From Apteryx mantelli (taxonomy: Eukaryota; Chordata; Aves; Apterygiformes; Apterygidae), in NCBI RefSeq assembly GCF_036417845.1, contig NC_090020.1, positions 41,896,425 to 41,960,424 on the forward strand: 64,000 nt of DNA, given 5' to 3'. The stretch's first letter is position 1; every line of letters starts with the position of its first letter. Shown piece after piece: positions 42,715 to 49,218 of this stretch. Below the pieces are notes generated by a model, which was not told the origin of the DNA, made no database searches, and saw nothing but the letters and a program-made list of their open reading frames with translations. A program made the translations under genes and the position numbers.

Positions 42715-42718
42715 CCAC
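42715..42718. repeat. Target-site duplication, left copy (CCAC)
   Basis: CCAC directly precedes the TG of the 5' LTR and recurs directly after the CA of the 3' LTR. A 4-bp duplication is the usual size for gammaretroviral integration. Confidence 0.9.
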
Positions 42719-42786
42719 TGTTACATTATATTGATTAGAATAGGTTATACTTGGTAGACTAGATGAAGGTATAATCGCAGGTGTTG

Positions 42787-42834
42787 GGTACAGTACGGTC
42801 TGATGAACTAGGTACAGTACAGTCTGATGAACTA
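42787..42834 (+). repeat. 24-bp direct tandem repeat in U3
   Basis: Two adjacent 24-bp units (42787-42810 and 42811-42834) begin ggtacagtac and end tctgatgaacta. They differ at one base. Their location upstream of the TATA boxes is where retroviral enhancer repeats usually sit. The same pair is at 48932-48979 in the 3' LTR. Confidence 0.9.
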
Positions 42835-42876
42835 GGTAAATGATAAGCAAATCTTGGCAACAGTAACTGAAGAAAC

Positions 42877-42883
42877 TATAAAT
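42877..42883 (+). promoter_or_regulatory. Alternative TATA box in 5' LTR
   Basis: TATAAAT. It lies about 138 bp upstream of the polyadenylation signal, so less likely than the second box if the R region is short. Confidence 0.35.
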
Positions 42884-42938
42884 GGGAAACAATCATGTAG
42901 CTTAGCAATTCTGTTGATTATGTTACGTAACCGAACAC

Positions 42939-42945
42939 TATAAAT
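42939..42945 (+). promoter_or_regulatory. Likely TATA box of 5' LTR promoter
   Basis: TATAAAT located 76 bp before AATAAA. This spacing would give a start near 42970 and a short R region of roughly 60-70 bp, as in gammaretroviruses. The start site is inferred from spacing. Confidence 0.55.
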
Positions 42946-43014
42946 ATTAACCAAGTTAAACGGGGATTTGGGATTCTCAGCTTTGGACATGAGTCCCTGA
43001 GACCCCGGGCCCTG

Positions 43015-43020
43015 AATAAA
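43015..43020 (+). terminator. Polyadenylation signal in 5' LTR
   Basis: AATAAA in the context cctgaataaagca. The copy at 49160-49165 in the 3' LTR would be the one used for viral RNA. Confidence 0.8.
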
Positions 43021-43075
43021 GCACCGCATATAACTGCTTTCGTAGTTATGTGTTTCTTTATGGGCAACAGTTTTC

Positions 43076-43093
43076 TGGTGACCCAGATGGGAC
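43076..43093 (+). other. Primer binding site, tRNA-Trp-like
   Basis: TGGTGACCCAGATGGGAC lies 6 bp after the LTR end. Its first nine bases fit the 3' end of tRNA-Trp, and I count 14 of 18 matches to the usual Trp primer site. Most well-known gammaretroviruses use Pro or Gln primers, while the avian leukosis group uses Trp. The assignment comes from memory of primer-site sequences. Confidence 0.65.
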
Positions 43094-43476
43094 TTCGGGA
43101 GTAGTGTTGACGGTTCGCTTTCCAATTTTGCTCCGTGCCGGCACCGAGGAATTCTCGGGGAGCCATCGGCTGCGCCCGCTCTGCGCTGCTCCTGACGTCC
43201 CAAAGTGGTAAGCCCGAAGGTGCTTTATTATAGTATTTTGGTTGGGTGCCTGCCTAATAAGACGTGACGGCGATTCATGCAAGGTTGGGCTAACGAGCTC
43301 GAGGTCTGGTCTGTGGAAGCCTAGGCGCTGGCCGTCAGACGGAGCGAAAGCCCCACAGGTCCAGCACTCACGGACATACGTGGCTGTCTCGTGAGTTTGG
43401 TTTGGTCTTTTGTTTCCCATCAGAGGCTATCTTTCCGTTTTCTACCCCGTAGATTTAGTGTGTGTGTGTGGAATGA
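43094..43476 (+). other. Untranslated leader of the provirus
   Basis: Non-coding 5' leader between primer site and gag. It should hold the packaging signal, though I cannot locate it by eye. A donor-like GGTAAGC is at 43207-43213. Long minus-strand frames here are shadows of the GC-rich leader. Confidence 0.6.
43208..43212 (+). promoter_or_regulatory. Candidate env splice donor
   Basis: GTAAG within aaagtg|gtaagc fits a 5' splice site and sits in the leader, where the donor for env mRNA is expected. Inferred from motif and position only. Confidence 0.4.
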
Positions 43477-43488
43477 ATGTGTAAGACC

Positions 43489-43686
43489 ATGGTAATACCG
43501 GATAATTCTCCGTTAGGATGTTTATTAAAGCATTGGAAAAGTGCGGGATATTTTCAGAGTATGAGTAAAAGTCGATTTATAGATTATTGTACGAATTGGT
43601 GGCCACAATATGAGTATGATGGACCCTGGTGGCCTGAACACGGAAGTTTAGATCCGGGTGTTATAGGTCCATTAATGAGATATTGA
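43489..43686 (+). pseudogene. gag: Gag matrix-like N-terminal fragment
   Basis: Open frame of 65 codons ending at a TGA that is immediately followed by TAA (43684-43689). An ATG four codons upstream (43477) is possible, but the 43489 ATG has a strong context (gaccATGg). The translated text has the spaced W, WP and GSLDPG-type pattern of gammaretroviral matrix proteins, including SPLGCLLKHWKS near the start. The residue after either Met is not Gly, so the usual myristoylation signal is absent at both starts. The same frame continues after the two stops for another 146 codons. The fragment would yield at most a truncated matrix peptide. Confidence 0.75.
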
Positions 43687-43689
43687 TAA

Positions 43690-44127
43690 GAACTTGAAAA
43701 ATGGGATGAAGTACCATATGTTGATCTATTTTATGATATACGTAATCATCCAGATATGCAGAGAGAATGTGGAATGTTGTTGGTACATCCCGAAAAAGAT
43801 AAAACAAAGTGTGAAGGATGTGTAGGTAATAAGAAGTGTATGACTTGTTTGGCAATACAAAATTCAATAAGAGAGCCAGAGGATGTATCACTTTTAGTAT
43901 CACCGACGGCCCCTGTGATGTCCGATATAGATGCAGGGGACGATAGTGATACCGATAGTATTAAGGCGGTAAAACTGTCAGAACCAATTAATACTGGAGC
44001 GATCCAGATTAAGTTAACACCGAAGGGTTCGCCAGGGCATTCATCATGCCCAAGACAAGCGCAACGAACCCCAATTGCACAGAGAACAAGACAAGGGAGG
44101 AAGGAACAAGAGCTAGAATATTTATAG
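43690..44127 (+). pseudogene. gag: Gag remnant: end of matrix and linker, capsid lost
   Basis: Continues the gag frame after the tandem TGA-TAA. It starts with EKWDEVPYVDLFYDI, a pattern like the end of gammaretroviral matrix, then has a Cys-rich stretch (CEGCVGNKKCMTC) and an acidic linker (DIDAGDDSDTDSIK). It ends in an Arg/Gln-rich tail at a TAG and overlaps the pol frame from about 44046. There is no capsid major-homology pattern and no CCHC zinc knuckle, so capsid and nucleocapsid are missing. The Cys cluster (CxxC then CxxC) is curious, but its spacing is not that of a nucleocapsid knuckle. Confidence 0.7.
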
Positions 44128-44864
44128 TAAAAGAAATAGCTAATACAACAATACCAATAGAGGTAGAAAACGCTGTAGTACCATGGGTATGGGAGACACA
44201 AATACCAGGATTAGCGAAAGCAGCAAAACCTGTCATAGTAGAATTGAAAGAAGGTGTCCAACCGGTAAGAGTTAGACAATATCCTATACAGTTAGAAGCT
44301 AGGAAAGGGGTAGCACCATTAATTGCAAAATTTTTAATGCACAATGTGTTAGAAGAATGTGAATCTGAATATAATACACCAATATTTCCTATAAGAAAAC
44401 CTAACGGAGATTATAGGTTAGTTCAAGATTTAAGAGCTGTAAATGAAATAGTTAAAGATATACATCCAGTAGTAGCAAATCCTTATACATTGTTAACATC
44501 TGTGGCAGAACAATTTAGATACTTTTCTGTAATTGATTTAAAAGATGCTTTCTTCTGCATCCCATTGGCATTACAAAGTAGGAAATTATTTGCGTTTGAA
44601 TGGGAAAATCCGGATACAGGAAGAAAACGACAGCTGACCTGGACCAGGTTACCACAAGGCTTCAAAAATAGTCCTACAATATTTGGGAATCAACTGGCAC
44701 GAGAACTGGAGGATTGGAAGGAGCAAGGATATTTTCAATTACCATCAGAAGCATACTTATTGTTGCAGTATGTGGATGACATTTTCGTGGCGACAGAAAG
44801 GTATGAAAACTGCATTACTGTTACAGTTGCGTTATTAAATTTACTGGGACAGAGCGGTTATTGA
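44046..44864 (+). pseudogene. pol: Pol part 1: reverse transcriptase fingers and palm
   Basis: 272-codon open frame ending in TGA (44862-44864). Counting from the ATG at 44046, RT homology begins near residue 47 (PWVWETQIPGLA), with the first catalytic Asp at 164 (VIDLKDAF), the LPQGFKNSP motif at 202-210 and YVDD at 242-245. About 45 residues before it match neither protease nor RT and lie at the junction of the gag-pol deletion. No DTGA-type protease motif is seen. Pol would copy genomic RNA into DNA. This copy cannot make full-length Pol because of the deletion and stops. The ATG is only the first in the open stretch. Natural Pol comes from Gag-Pol readthrough. Confidence 0.93.
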
Positions 44865-46433
44865 GTTTCTAAGGAAAAAGCCCAAATTGCCCAGGAAAAA
44901 GTGATATATCTGGGATGTGAAATTTCCCAAGGACAAAGACGGTTGGGGGTGAATAGAATACAAGCGATTTGTGCCATCCCTGAACCTAGAAATTTGCACG
45001 AGTTACGAACTTTTCTAGGAATGACAGGGTGGTGCAGACTCTGGATTTTGAATTATGGACTGTTAGCCAAACCACTGTATGAAGCTTTAAAAGAGCCACA
45101 ATTAGTTTGGAGTTTAGAGTGTAAAAGGGCTTTTCAAGACTTAAAACAGGCTCTGCAAGAAGCCCCAGCATTAGGATTGCCTGATTTGACAAAAACATTT
45201 CAACTCTTTGTACATGAGCGGCAACGACTAGCGTTTGGAGTTTTAACTCAACGAATTGGATCATGGAAGAGACCGGTGGGCTATTTTTCCAAGCAGTTGG
45301 ATATGGTAAGTGCCGGATGGCCTTCTTGCCTCCGAGCAGTGGCTGCTACTGTAATGTTAGTCCAAGAAGCTAGAAAATTAACATTGGGAACAAAAATGGA
45401 AGTATTTGTGCCCCACATGGTGATTGCAGTTTTGGAACAAAAGGGGGGTCATTGGTTGTCATCCAGTAGAATGTTGAAATATCAAGCAATATTGAGAGAA
45501 CAGGATGATATATTTTTAAAGATAACAACATGTTTGAATCCCGCTGAATTTTTAGGTAGCAAAATAGAGGAAGGCGAGCTGGAAAATGATTGTATTGAGG
45601 TGATCGAACAAACTTACGCCAGTAGGGTAGATCTGAAAGATATTCCCCTTGTAAATCCTGATTGGACATTATTTACAGACGGTAGCAGCTTTGTTGAGAA
45701 TGGAACACGATATTCTGGATATGCTGTGGTTACTAAGCTTGAAGTAATTGAAGCAAAGGCATTAATGCCAGGAACGTCAGCGCAAAAGGCAGAACTGGTC
45801 GCTCTAATTCGGGCTTTAATACTGAGTACGGATAAGAGAGTGAATATTTGGACAGATTCTAAATACGCTTTTGGAATAATACATATACATGGAGCTTTAT
45901 GGAAGGAAAGAGGATTGTTGACGGCTCAAGGTAGTATTATTAAATATCGAACCGAGATCTTACAGTTATTAGAGGCTGTGTTACTACCTCAGCAAGTGGC
46001 TGTAATGCATTGTCGAGGACATCAGAGGGATGACAGCGATGTGGCACAAGGAAACATGAAGGCGGACCAGGCAGCCAAAATTGCTGCACGGCAAGTATGG
46101 ACTGAATTAGCTCTAATACCTACTAAGGTAAGCCCGATTACTGCTCATCTCTCTGTAAATCCCTTTTATACCCAAGAAGATGAAAAATTAGCCGATTTGG
46201 TAAAGGCACAGAAGAATTCACATGGATGGTATGTAACAGGTAATGGACAAGTAGTAGTGCCTGCTACAATTATGAAACGAATAATACAAACTGAACATAA
46301 TAAATGCCATTGGGGAGCAGAAGCATTGGTGCAGTTTTTAAAGCGGAGCATTATATCTGCACAAATGTTAACAATAGCAAAAGGGGTGAATGCGAAGTGT
46401 CCAGTATGTTTAAAGAATAATCCGGTAATATGA
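44865..46433 (+). pseudogene. pol: Pol part 2: RT connection, RNase H, integrase zinc finger
   Basis: Same frame as part 1 after one TGA, open to a second TGA at 46431-46433. Numbered from the ATG at 44901, it has the RT thumb/connection (FLGMTGWCRLW at 39-49). RNase H follows with the acidic residues D260 (FTDGSS), E298 (AELVAL), D319 (WTDSKYAF) and D389 (KADQAAK). The integrase HHCC finger has H466, H470, C500 and C503. All RNase H catalytic positions are present. The break falls just after CPVCLKNNP, between zinc finger and catalytic core. Apart from the two TGA codons the frame is uninterrupted, so damage is light. Confidence 0.93.
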
Positions 46434-47309
46434 AAACAAATTCAAATGGGAACTTTGAAAGTGGGAATAGAACCAGGTGACTATTGGCAAGTGGATTTTG
46501 CAGAATTACCTAAATCAAAAGGGTTTAAGTATTTATTGGTATATGTATGTACCTTTTCAGGGTGGCCAGAAGCATTTCCCTGTAGAACGAATCAAGCTAG
46601 AGAAGTAGTAAAAACTTTGTTAAAAGAGATCATACCTAGATTTGGGGTACCTTTAGGAATTTCTTCAGATCGAGGCCCACACTTTATAGCTAAAATAGTA
46701 CAGGAAATTAGTGAAATGCTTGGAATTAGCTGGGATTTACATACACCATGGAGGCCACAATCTAGTGGAAAGGTAGAAAGGATGAATCAAACATTAAAAG
46801 GACAAATTAAAAAGATATGCCAGGAAGCTAAAATCCAATGGCCACAGGCATTGCCCCTTGCTTTATTGAGAATTCGTATAAAACCTAGAGAAGGGTTGTC
46901 TGTAAGTCCATATGAAATTCTGTACGGTAAGCCATATACTGCACCAACGACGGGAATGGGAAGCGCAGATTTACACCTTCAAGGAGATCAAGATGTTTAT
47001 AGTTATATAATTTCTTTAAGCAGATTACTCACAGCCTTACGTGCCGCGATCATCTGGAATCGCCCTTTGCCATTGGAGAATCCGGTGCATGATATTCAAC
47101 CAGGAGACCAAGTGTATGTTCGAAATTGGCAAACGGAGCCTTTAAAGGAACAGTGGCATGGACCTTATTTGGTACTATTGATAACATTTACCGCTGTGAA
47201 AGTAGCAGGAATTGATAATTGGATTCATTATACCAGAGTGAAGAAGGTACCATCACAATGGGGGGTAAAAATGATCACTCCTACAAAACTGAGATTTACA
47301 TCTTGGTAA
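46434..47309 (+). pseudogene. pol: Pol part 3: integrase catalytic core and C-terminal domain
   Basis: Frame-continuous with part 2 after TGA. Counting from the ATG at 46446, the integrase triad is D17 (WQVDFAE), D75 (SSDRGPHF) and E111 (GKVERMN). There are exactly 35 residues between the second Asp and the Glu, the classical D,D35E spacing. A GPY/F module (WHGPYLVLL) and WIHYTRVK follow near the C terminus, both gammaretroviral features. It ends in TAA at 47307-47309. The last ~50 bp overlap the env start region in another frame, as is usual for gammaretroviruses. All catalytic residues are intact although the frame is cut from the rest of Pol. Confidence 0.93.
47011..47023 (+). promoter_or_regulatory. 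Candidate env splice acceptor
   Basis: TTTCTTTAAGCAG is a short pyrimidine-biased tract ending in CAG about 235 bp before the env ATG at 47258. It is a plausible 3' splice site for a subgenomic env mRNA. Not proven. Confidence 0.3.
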
Positions 47310-47779
47310 TACTATGCTGGGTAGGATTAAGTAATGGTTTCGCTCAAATAATACATACATATGCTACTGTACATATAGAAGAACGAATGGATGTAAATTT
47401 GACTTGTGATTTTGTTGGAGATATGGGAAGTTCAATCCAAGACATTAGTTGCTATTGGCAGAAGAATGAGTCCAAATTGTCAACTGGGTTTACAATCCGA
47501 TGGGATAGTGATACACGAAGGGGTACTATGATTTTATCATTGCGAAATGTAAGTAAGACAGATGTAGGAAACTACACCTGTATTGTTTGGATTAAAGAGA
47601 GTTTTGATTATGGAAAAAGGGCATTAGAGGTTACTGCAAAATCAGAACCTATGCAGAAAAGAAACAGAGCCAGGAGAGAGTTAAAAGATTTGGAAAAAGA
47701 TGAAATGCAACCAATACAAATAATCCAGGCGCCACAACAGGAAACACAAGAAAATCTAATGCAAAAGAAAGTTAGCTGA
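47258..47779 (+). CDS. env: Env surface region: signal peptide plus Ig V-like domain
   Basis: Intact 173-codon frame (186 codons from an earlier ATG at 47219, used for numbering). Residues 24-42 form a hydrophobic signal peptide. Residues 47-140 read as one immunoglobulin V-like domain: B-strand Cys63 (NLTCDF), Trp80 after an extra Cys78 (SCYWQ), an E-strand-like MILSLRNV, and the F-strand signature D115-x-G117-x-Y119-x-C121. The two canonical Cys are 58 residues apart. Sequons lie at N60, N83, N110 and N118. A furin-type RARR (150-153) follows, then a polar Gln/Glu/Lys-rich tail to TGA. It overlaps the pol 3' end in another frame, where env is expected to start. I know no characterised gammaretroviral surface protein with such a recognisable Ig signature. 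Possible origins are capture of a host receptor domain or strong convergence. It could act as a secreted or receptor-binding Ig domain; this is inference. Confidence 0.8.
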   Translation: MGGKNDHSYKTEIYILVILCWVGLSNGFAQIIHTYATVHIEERMDVNLTCDFVGDMGSSIQDISCYWQKNESKLSTGFTIRWDSDTRRGTMILSLRNVSKTDVGNYTCIVWIKESFDYGKRALEVTAKSEPMQKRNRARRELKDLEKDEMQPIQIIQAPQQETQENLMQKKVS

Positions 47780-48079
47780 AAAACACCCAGTCTAGAACTG
47801 TACAAAAGTATACACTTGTGACAACCCGAAAGTGAAGTTACCTTTCCACCTGTGGTCCTTGCATTAAGGACAGGTTGTGCTTGTAGAGGAATTAAATACT
47901 CAATGAGTGAACCTGTAATACAATTCGGAGTGAGAATAGATTGTAGAACTACGATCAGGAGCATAGGAAATTTAGTTTGGGTTACAAGTGATGGACAATG
48001 GACGACTCACCTCCCCTTGGATGGGTTGGTGACTGAAATAACTTTAGGGTTACCAACTCTCTGCCCAATTTGGAAGTAA
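47780..48079 (+). pseudogene. env: Env surface-subunit C-terminal remnant
   Basis: Same frame as the Ig-like part. The TGA at 47777 is followed by 13 codons, a second TGA at 47819-47821 and then 85 open codons to TAA at 48077-48079. The text has GCACRG near its start, a second Cys (RIDCRTT), WVTSDGQWTTHLPL and a closing LPTLCPIW. This looks like the conserved end of a retroviral surface subunit just before the transmembrane subunit. No basic furin site is evident directly before the TAA. The assignment rests on position, Cys/Trp pattern and frame continuity. Confidence 0.6.
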
Positions 48080-48775
48080 GCGCCATTTAAGGGTAGATTA
48101 GAAAATTTACGGATAATGAAGAGAGAAATAAAGGATGATGATGATTGGCAAGAACCATCATCCGGTGTGAAGTTAGGTTGGGCTTTAGAATCATTGTTTG
48201 CTCCAATTAGTACTTATCGGAATAGAGAAATGTTGTACCGGTTGTTAGGACAAACGGAAAGGCTAGCAAGAGTGACTAAAGAAGGATTTAAGGAAATAAA
48301 CTTACAATTACAGGCAACCACAAAAATGACCCTGCAAAATAGAATGGCATTAGATATGCTGTTGCTAAAAGAACATGGAGTATGTGGTTATTTACGAGAT
48401 AAGATTGATCATTGTTGTGTACATATTCCGAATGTTACAGCCGCGGTAGAACGTGATTTGTCTCAGCTAACACAAATTGAACATGCAACTGAGGAAGAAA
48501 GAGAAGAAAGTACCCATAATGGGGTTGCTGCTTTAGCAAAGTCATTTGGATTGAACATCTCTGGTTGGGTAGCATCTTTAATTCAATGGTGTATAATAAT
48601 TATAATTATTATGTTAGCTATTATGGGAGTGTTGTGTTTGATTCAAAATATTGTTAATAAGGAACGGCAACACTTGGGGAAAATTTTAAAAGCTGTTACC
48701 AGGAAGAATCATGAACTTCCCCCGAGATATGAAGACATTGGAAATAATTCATCGCAGCTACAATCACCAGTTTGA
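48080..48775 (+). pseudogene. env: Env transmembrane subunit
   Basis: Open for 231 codons after the TAA; first ATG at 48116 (219 codons, used for numbering). It has an N-terminal heptad region (about 24-72), then LQNRMALDMLLLKEHGVC at 73-90, which matches the immunosuppressive-domain position of gammaretroviral TM. C90 and C100-C101 follow, that is C-x9-CC where the family standard is C-x6-CC. A hydrophobic anchor spans 152-177 and a cytoplasmic tail 182-219 contains PPRY (202-205) and ends at TGA. The start (KDDDDWQEPSS) is charged, and no hydrophobic fusion peptide or RxKR site is visible before the heptad region. Normally TM fuses viral and cell membranes; this one may not. Confidence 0.85.
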
Positions 48776-48851
48776 GACGGTCCAAAGAATATGGAAATCT
48801 GCGGAACTGATGATGAAAATCCTTGCAGTCTGGAAGACCTGAAGTATTTTC

Positions 48852-48862
48852 AAAGGGGGGAA
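48852..48862 (+). other. Polypurine tract
   Basis: AAAGGGGGGAA lies one base before the TG of the 3' LTR, the expected primer site for plus-strand DNA synthesis. Confidence 0.9.
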
Positions 48863-48863
48863 T

Positions 48864-49214
48864 TGTTACATTATATTGATTAGAATAGGTTATACTTGGT
48901 AGACTAGATGAAGGTATAATCGCAGGTGTTGGGTACAGTACGGTCTGATGAACTAGGTACAGTACAGTCTGATGAACTAGGTAAATGATAAGCAAATCTT
49001 GGCAACAGTAACTGAAGAAACTATAAATGGGAAACAATCATGTAGCTTAGCAATTCTGTTGATTATGTTACGTAACCGAACACTATAAATATTAACCAAG
49101 TTAAACGGGGATTTGGGATTCTCAGCTTTGGACATGAGTCCCTGAGACCCCGGGCCCTGAATAAAGCACTGCATATAACTGCTTTCGTAGTTATGTGTTT
49201 CTTTACGGGCAACA
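48864..49214 (+). repeat. 3' LTR, 351 bp
   Basis: Same length as the 5' LTR and two transitions different (0.57 percent). It carries the same U3 tandem pair (48932-48979), a TATAAAT at 49084-49090 and AATAAA at 49160-49165, which is the expected site for ending viral transcripts. Confidence 0.98.
49160..49165 (+). terminator. Polyadenylation signal in 3' LTR
   Basis: AATAAA in cctgaataaagca; expected to end proviral transcripts about 15-25 bp downstream. Confidence 0.75.
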
Positions 49215-49218
49215 CCAC
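49215..49218. repeat. Target-site duplication, right copy (CCAC)
   Basis: CCAC directly follows the 3' LTR and matches the left copy exactly, so the provirus is a complete integration event without terminal rearrangement. Confidence 0.9.

Follow-up and report, generated by a model that had tools for sequence, protein, structure and literature searches.

In the genome of the kiwi Apteryx mantelli, a 64,000-nucleotide stretch of contig NC_090020.1 (positions 41,896,425 to 41,960,424 of the forward strand; hereafter the window, whose own positions are used below) carries a provirus in which the env position begins with an immunoglobulin (Ig) domain, and five related envelope proteins (Envs) from the databases carry such a domain between the signal peptide and the surface subunit (SU). 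That the window domain is a genuine Ig-superfamily (IgSF) domain in the env position was confirmed by Pfam profile matches and a predicted fold. We consider it probable, as one joint judgement on all of its parts, that the provirus is one copy of an avian class-I endogenous retrovirus (ERV) whose ancestral Env had the Ig domain ahead of the SU and the transmembrane subunit (TM), that this domain was of host B7 type and was cleaved from the SU, and that the SU was deleted in the kiwi family.

Identification of the Ig domain in the env frame

The Ig frame is open from 47219 to a TGA at 47777-47779, with an ATG at 47258, and shares 52 nt with the end of pol (47309), an overlap already described in a sequence-only reading of this DNA. 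Four Pfam Ig models scored above their cut-offs, namely Ig_3 (2e-7, 31.9 bits vs 30), I-set (5.2e-7, 30.1 vs 23.7), ig (1e-6, 29.4 vs 21.8) and Ig_2 (1.6e-6, 28.7 vs 27); the V-set model stayed below its cut-off of 26, with 22.7 bits for the whole frame and 25.3 bits for the isolated domain. The AlphaFold2 model has eight strands within residues 35-126, a signal-like helix at residues 6-23 and a disordered tail at residues 132-173, and confidently predicts an Ig beta-sandwich with the Cys-Cys-Trp core. The end of the signal peptide was placed from this hydrophobic helix and the start of the Ig domain, not by a signal-peptide program.

Counted from the ATG, the Ig hallmarks are Cys50, Trp67 and D102-V-G-N-Y-T-C108, and S-F-D-Y-G follows at 115-119. 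The sequence-only reading had recognized the same hallmarks as residues 63, 80 and 121, counting from 47219, 13 codons before the ATG, and its four sequons were found at residues 47, 70, 97 and 105 of the 173-residue frame. It had placed an Ig domain in a retroviral env slot and had named a profile search and a structure prediction as checks, which returned Ig-family matches above the Pfam cut-offs and an Ig-type fold of eight strands, respectively. Its proposal of a captured host V-set domain stood in part: membership of the Ig superfamily was borne out and a host origin is likely, while the V-set score is below the cut-off and the sequence leans to a B7-type domain.

Receptor-binding domains of the murine leukaemia virus (MLV) type are beta-sandwich folds, and for this reason one might ask whether the segment is a normal env domain whose Ig signature arose by chance. 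Such an explanation has to face the four Pfam models above cut-off, the Ig-family matches of all five isolated domains compared (see below) and the IgSF hits of the PDB sequence searches; for practical purposes the Pfam matches and the predicted fold refute it, and we give it almost no probability.

Loss of the SU behind the Ig domain

Behind the Ig domain the frame continues through a basic motif, R-A-R-R, to E-N-L-M, and immediately past ENLM (47750-47761) the kiwi sequence departs from its relatives. SU-like sequence follows first in another frame, as a stretch at 47706-47840 whose left end is uncertain and overlaps the tail of the Ig frame, and then, from 47825, in the frame of the Ig domain (tblastn with P0049, one of the database Envs, which are cited here by row labels). 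The end of the Ig frame lies in frame-shifted sequence after the SU loss and, judged from alignment spacings, roughly 160-180 SU residues appear to be gone from the kiwi copy. The TM matched TLV_coat of Pfam (2.4e-5, 23.7 bits vs a cut-off of 22.5). The intact frame claimed by the sequence-only reading applies to the Ig part and not to the env behind it, which is interrupted by in-frame stops at 47777, 47819 and 48077. Replacement of the SU by the Ig domain, also proposed there, was rejected: in Envs of other birds the Ig domain stands ahead of the SU, an SU remnant was detected behind the Ig domain of the window, and the short env of the window comes from SU loss.

The stops were surveyed in 30 copies, including the window, which were picked by Ig similarity and of which 19 lie on the contigs C47, C48, C49 and C53, mostly in tandem arrays. 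The stop at 47777 was present in 29 copies (one could not be anchored) and that at 47819 in all 30; the stops at 46431 (in pol) and 48077 were found in the window copy only, among 28 and 25 anchorable copies, respectively. On account of this distribution, the SU loss is a trait of the kiwi family, and the stops at 46431 and 48077 are private. The databases also contain a gene model of this family from Apteryx mantelli, P0001 (LOC106491697, 290 aa, uncharacterised); it represents the SU remnant and the TM, and the TM piece of the window matches it at 98% identity along its entire length.

Distribution and structure of Ig-bearing and Ig-less Envs in birds

The TM piece served as the first query for relatives and a nine-Env profile as the second. 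As a result, a total of 65 proteins were obtained, those with a named source being from birds except three fish rows, and the 12 matching the N-terminal SU motif ENxxxGL were taken as the comparison set. Five of the 12 have an Ig domain between the signal peptide and the SU, i.e. P0043 (Strigops), P0055 (Myiozetetes), P0056 (Acridotheres), P0049 and P0051; all five keep the SU and at least part of the TM, which is complete in P0043, P0049 and P0051. By alignment, an apparent shortened Ig remnant is present in P0050 (Poecile; no Pfam Ig match) and P0052 (Hirundo). The other five, P0036 (Melospiza), P0040 (Ammospiza), P0044 (Prinia), P0057 and P0061 (Pezoporus), are without an Ig domain. The counts exclude P0034 (Cuculus): although a signal peptide, a stretch with Cys and a run of basic residues are visible in it, it has the appearance of a skipped gene model. 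The short leaders of the Ig-less P0040 and P0044 align by eye with the first Cys strand of the Ig domain, which hints that they may be an Ig remnant, i.e. loss and not original absence.

When the full-length proteins were scanned, P0055 and P0056 passed at least one Pfam Ig cut-off and P0049 and P0043 stayed below; as isolated domains, the Igs of the window, P0049, P0051, P0055 and P0056 all matched Ig_2, ig, Ig_3, I-set and V-set at E <= 0.01. The kiwi Ig domain shares 29-38% identity over 82-99 aa with those of P0049, P0051, P0055 and P0056 and 27% over 66 aa with that of P0043, and L48, C50, F52, W67, W82, G89, L93, C108, V110, S115, D117 and Y118 are common to all six. In the TM, CX9CC was found in 46 of the 65 proteins and in the window, and the n = 6 version of C-Xn-CC matched just the three fish rows, where the match in P0039 seems to lie in the tail. 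No CxxC occurs in the 11 SU sequences that could be excised from the 12 relatives (all but P0055), and the SU of the window is mostly deleted. A protein search with the Ig domain alone gave 16 candidates, none at E <= 1, but this negative carries little weight, complete Envs being too long for the length range of that search; scans of IMG/VR with the Ig domain and with a five-Ig profile, and of phage records, returned no relative.

Basic motif between the Ig domain and the SU

R-x-x-R was found 16-24 residues ahead of the SU motif in 11 of the 12 Envs, P0049 being without any, and it lies between the Ig domain and the SU in four of the five Ig-bearing Envs; in the kiwi, RARR sits 28 residues ahead of ENLM. 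The stricter R-x-[KR]-R occurs in seven of the 12, and P0050, P0052, P0055 and P0056 have R-x-x-R alone. All five Ig-less Envs possess R-x-x-R, with the songbird-type P0036, P0040, P0044 and P0057 keeping a short leader that ends in it ahead of the SU. A second basic site precedes the TM in 10 of the 12 (P0061 ends earlier and the SU of P0055 was not cut out). The two motifs suggest an Env precursor with two cuts.

These data bear on the main alternative, that the Ig is the receptor-binding domain of Env, an attachment head swapped or extended with a host adhesion or ligand domain. Its N-terminal position and the binding ability of Ig folds would suit this role, and within S-F-D-Y-G after the second Cys the S, D and Y are found in 6/6 domains and the F and G in 5/6; in alligators, moreover, CrocERV31 carries nectin3 in the place of env, and the authors of that report speculate on a help to infection (PMC4299795). 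However, the Ig-less songbird proteins P0040 (532 aa) and P0044 (555 aa), both gene predictions, keep the SU and the basic motif, which argues that the Ig may not be needed for basic Env work, and a cleavable motif between the Ig and the SU would be odd for a main attachment head. The linker behind the Ig domain is disordered in the P0051 model, residues 133-188 being below a per-residue confidence (pLDDT) of 50. A receptor-binding role is in our opinion possible, though rather doubtful.

Phylogeny and source of the Ig domain

Trees were reconstructed for the TM part (26 rows) and for SU plus TM (12 rows), both midpoint-rooted only. Two main groups are seen in each, with split supports of 33/40 (TM) and 100/100 (SU plus TM). 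Because Ig-bearing Envs occur in both groups (P0043 in one; P0049, P0051, P0055 and P0056 in the other), the capture looks old. The kiwi groups with the P0043 side in the TM tree, at weak support (33/40). The simplest account would be that the Ig domain was gained once, ahead of the split, and was lost from the songbird group and from P0061.

Among the best 60 of 1433 rows of the PDB search with the five-Ig profile were CD276, at 1.4e-21 for the chain (several domains; best single domain 7.8e-5), PD-L2 (1.9e-11) and PD-L1 (about 5e-6). With the Ig of P0051 alone, CD276 or PD-L2 made up eight of the nine PDB sequences that reached E <= 0.01, and Foldseek with the P0051 Env model put B7-H3, PD-L2 and PD-L1 on top. 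An ultimate host origin of the Ig domain is likely, and B7-type descent is the source that these sequence matches moderately favour. Among kiwi V-set loci (28 of 150 scored loci compared), the best reached about 30 bits with the profile (30.0; L043 and L041); L043 and L045, judged by eye, presumably resemble butyrophilins. Of the structures in BFVD, shearwaterpox SWPV1-144 (172 aa, E 2.0e-13, 25%) and SWPV1-183 (E 3.6e-12, 33%) are nearest to the kiwi Ig and rank ahead of the other viral Ig proteins listed, and a common source of the avipox and avian retroviral Ig domains is possible.

Several results count against parts of the scheme of a single early gain, B7 descent and cleavage. Repeated gain of the Ig domain may also be compatible with the midpoint-rooted trees. 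In the profile search, DIP-alpha (2.3e-11), CEA (3.5e-7) and contactin-5 (4e-7) rank beside PD-L2 and PD-L1 among the same best 60 of 1433 rows. The kiwi protein itself found titin first in the PDB by sequence, with CD276 a close second, Foldseek with the kiwi model gave myotilin and titin, and VIA structure comparisons ended in ties with other IgSF members. The B7 layout of a V-type followed by a C-type domain (IgV then IgC) is not present; a single Ig is followed by a disordered linker and then the SU. Finally, four of the five Ig-less, motif-bearing Envs are near relatives, so that the count of R-x-x-R overstates independence. Structure had been tried as a guide to the Ig subfamily and was dropped on account of the ties.

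Organization and age of the provirus

The pair of long terminal repeats (LTRs) delimits a provirus at 42719-49214 (Table 1). A 4-bp CCAC duplication on both sides and the MLVIN_C match place it among class I (gammaretrovirus-like) ERVs. Pol is one frame with two in-frame stops (44862 and 46431) and matched RVT_1 (2.7e-22), RNase_H (1.1e-23), rve (5.6e-19) and MLVIN_C (1.1e-17). The distance from the 5' LTR to the reverse transcriptase (RT) frame is 976 bp, and frame 43756-44124, the only one scanned in that interval, gave no match to any Pfam family; gag seems to be largely missing. The window copy is young, since its LTRs differ at only 2 of 351 sites (0.57%); with neutral change in birds at 1-2 x 10^-9 per site annually, the insertion would be, very roughly, 1.4-2.8 million years old.

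Table 1. Features of the kiwi provirus (window positions)
Feature	Position	Strand	Details
Target-site duplication CCAC	left 42715..42718, right 49215-49218		4 bp; direct sequence
5' LTR	42719..43069	+	351 bp, TGTTACA...GGGCAACA
pol (RT, RNase H, integrase with MLV-type C-terminal domain)	44046..47309	+	Pfam and frame reading
env N-terminal frame (signal peptide, Ig, basic motif, short tail)	47258..47779	+	173 aa + stop
Probable signal peptide, residues 1-28	47258..47341	+	hydrophobic helix 6-23 and Ig start, by eye
Ig domain, about residues 29-129	47342..47644	+	Pfam, alignments, AlphaFold2 model
R-A-R-R, furin-like basic motif between Ig and SU start	47666..47677	+	compared with 12 database Envs
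SU-like stretch in other frame than Ig	47706..47840	+	tblastn, P0049 SU residues 165-211, 36.7%
E-N-L-M, start of relatives' SU motif ENLxxGLxxDF	47750..47761	+	alignment
C-terminal SU remnant (G-C-A-C-R, WTTHLP, TLCPIW)	47822..48079	+	ends at in-frame stop 48077
TM subunit (coiled-coil region, CX9CC at 48383-48418, membrane anchor)	48080..48775	+	
3' LTR	48864..49214	+	351 bp

Copies in the kiwi genome and selection

Copies were searched for in the genome (1.5 Gb, 408 contigs) with two queries. All 40 places scored with the Ig DNA query, out of 510 first-look candidates, are nearly identical; with the integrase query, 40 of 847 candidates were scored and 30 loci were fetched. Among these integrase-picked loci, 22 (including the window) align over the full Ig, 18 with open and 4 with broken frames. 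The other eight comprise seven with a partial Ig (521/522 in L063) and one, L090, without Ig and TM. The seven were left out of the count of open and broken frames; four of them belong to one tandem array on C379. Four array copies in further fetched regions differ from the window at 2, 3, 3 and 5 of 522 Ig sites, and the first of these copies is also in the Ig-picked list. Among the Ig-picked copies, all 30 frames including that of the window are open, with 0-2 differences in 522. A stronger conservation of the Ig than of the rest of the provirus, which seemed to hold for the Ig-picked copies, vanished in the integrase-picked ones and was rejected as an effect of copy choice.

Selection was analysed in the 29 integrase-picked copies besides the window, 28 of which have the Ig and 27 the SU remnant and TM. 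For integrase, Ig, SU remnant and TM, respectively, differences per base were 0.86% (biased low by copy choice), 0.79%, 1.91% and 1.19%, distinct variants per site were 0.087, 0.089, 0.094 and 0.090, and crude nonsynonymous/synonymous ratios were 0.48, 0.74, 0.68 and 0.36. No sign of a special constraint on the kiwi Ig was found among the integrase-picked copies.

For the kiwi copies, as distinct from the ancestral virus, the Ig frame may be a passenger, a remnant without expression or without use in a defective family spread by helpers and tandem duplication. The SU is deleted, pol of the window copy is broken, a gag domain was not found in the one frame tested, and the Ig shows no excess constraint among copies, with 4 of the 22 full-length Ig frames broken. 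That 18 of the 22 frames, including that of the window, are open points the other way, but the copies are young and this carries little weight either way. We lean slightly towards the passenger view, which for these copies is no less likely than a function of any kind. An emerging host gene, with the kiwi using the secreted Ig, for example to block related viruses, would fit a stand-alone secreted-type frame common to the copies (stop 47777 in 29/30); it is hard to reconcile with the young age of the window copy (LTRs 2/351), a selection signal was not found, although no search was aimed at an old conserved locus, and we think it very unlikely.

Tandem arrays were observed as seven places at 6850-bp steps on C14, five at about 7420 bp on C379, and places on C47 and C49 at 6925-6982-bp steps or multiples of about that; it is as if one LTR and the internal part had turned satellite. 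Compared with the window copy, array units L059-L061 have about 760 additional bp close to where the RT frame begins (about 44108 in the window), owing to either a further internal deletion in the window copy or an insertion in the array.

Proposed role of the Ig domain and comparison with known systems

Under the proposed scheme, the ancestral Env precursor would have begun with a signal peptide and the Ig domain, followed by an R-x-x-R site, the SU, a further basic site and the TM. The Ig would have been acquired from the host before the two Env branches split, the donor being an Ig-superfamily gene, most probably one of B7 type. In an intact Env, furin-like proteases of the secretory path would cut the Ig from the SU at R-x-x-R, and the freed Ig would be released from the cell as a separate small glycoprotein or remain in loose attachment to the spike. 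As a ligand or decoy, soluble or loosely bound, the Ig would most likely act on an immune receptor of the host, by either engaging or blocking it. With the SU deleted, the kiwi family could make at most a secreted 173-residue pre-protein (Ig and tail) and SU/TM pieces. A more specific proposal, that a long-lived group of bird retroviruses has its own B7-like checkpoint ligand, a leader of every Env molecule derived from PD-L or B7-H3 and released by furin, by which infected cells would secrete an immune-receptor ligand or decoy in step with spike production, and later dropped in some lineages, with the kiwi family keeping just this outer part of Env open, is speculative and we hold it to be unlikely.

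The B7 ligands CD276, PD-L2 and PD-L1 resemble the viral domain in that CD276 and PD-L2 are the best PDB matches of the Ig profile (within the best 60 of 1433) and of the P0051 Ig; unlike them, the Envs have a single Ig, with no second C-type Ig seen, fused to a viral fusion protein and distant in sequence. Foamy virus Env has a leader peptide, not an Ig, which a furin-type protease separates from the SU at a site that precedes the SU-TM cut. The avian Envs likewise have a leader part ahead of the SU, their cut being predicted from the sequence motif.

The nearest precedent is the nectin3 of CrocERV31, a captured host mRNA with three Ig-like domains that replaces env (PMC4299795). Both are ERV lineages with a host Ig-superfamily protein in the env region, but the avian one is class I and, in the relatives, has a single Ig ahead of a retained SU-TM with a basic motif behind it. 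Gamma-type Envs have C-Xn-CC in the TM, typically with n = 6, and CxxC in the SU, which is absent in alpharetroviruses (PMC9967133). The avian Envs share with them a coiled-coil TM with C-Xn-CC, TLV_coat, a basic SU-TM site and an env overlapping the end of an MLV-type pol, and differ in CX9CC, an SU without CxxC (11 relatives) and the Ig ahead of the SU. Avipox viruses also encode Ig domains, entered as 'Ig-like domain protein' (PMC5390406); SWPV1-144 and SWPV1-183 are bird-virus Ig domains too, but stand-alone poxvirus genes. No report of an Ig domain in an avian Env was listed by searches of the open-licence literature of PubMed Central (PMC), which is no proof of absence; two articles (PMC10072453, PMC11287128) are not relevant, the Ig-like domains mentioned there being those of CD4 and of a STRING partner.

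Capture of host genes by retroviruses is usually pictured as that of oncogenes or of whole mRNAs costing a viral gene. In the avian case, a host-type Ig seemingly joined Env without cost to SU or TM and is set off by a cleavage-like motif; the hosts of Ig-bearing Envs range from the kiwi to parrots and songbirds, and the Ig was apparently lost again in some lines. The hypothesis can be tested with single-domain proteins. If the link to B7 is true, these Envs would be a retroviral counterpart of the Ig-domain immune modulators of pox- and herpesviruses.
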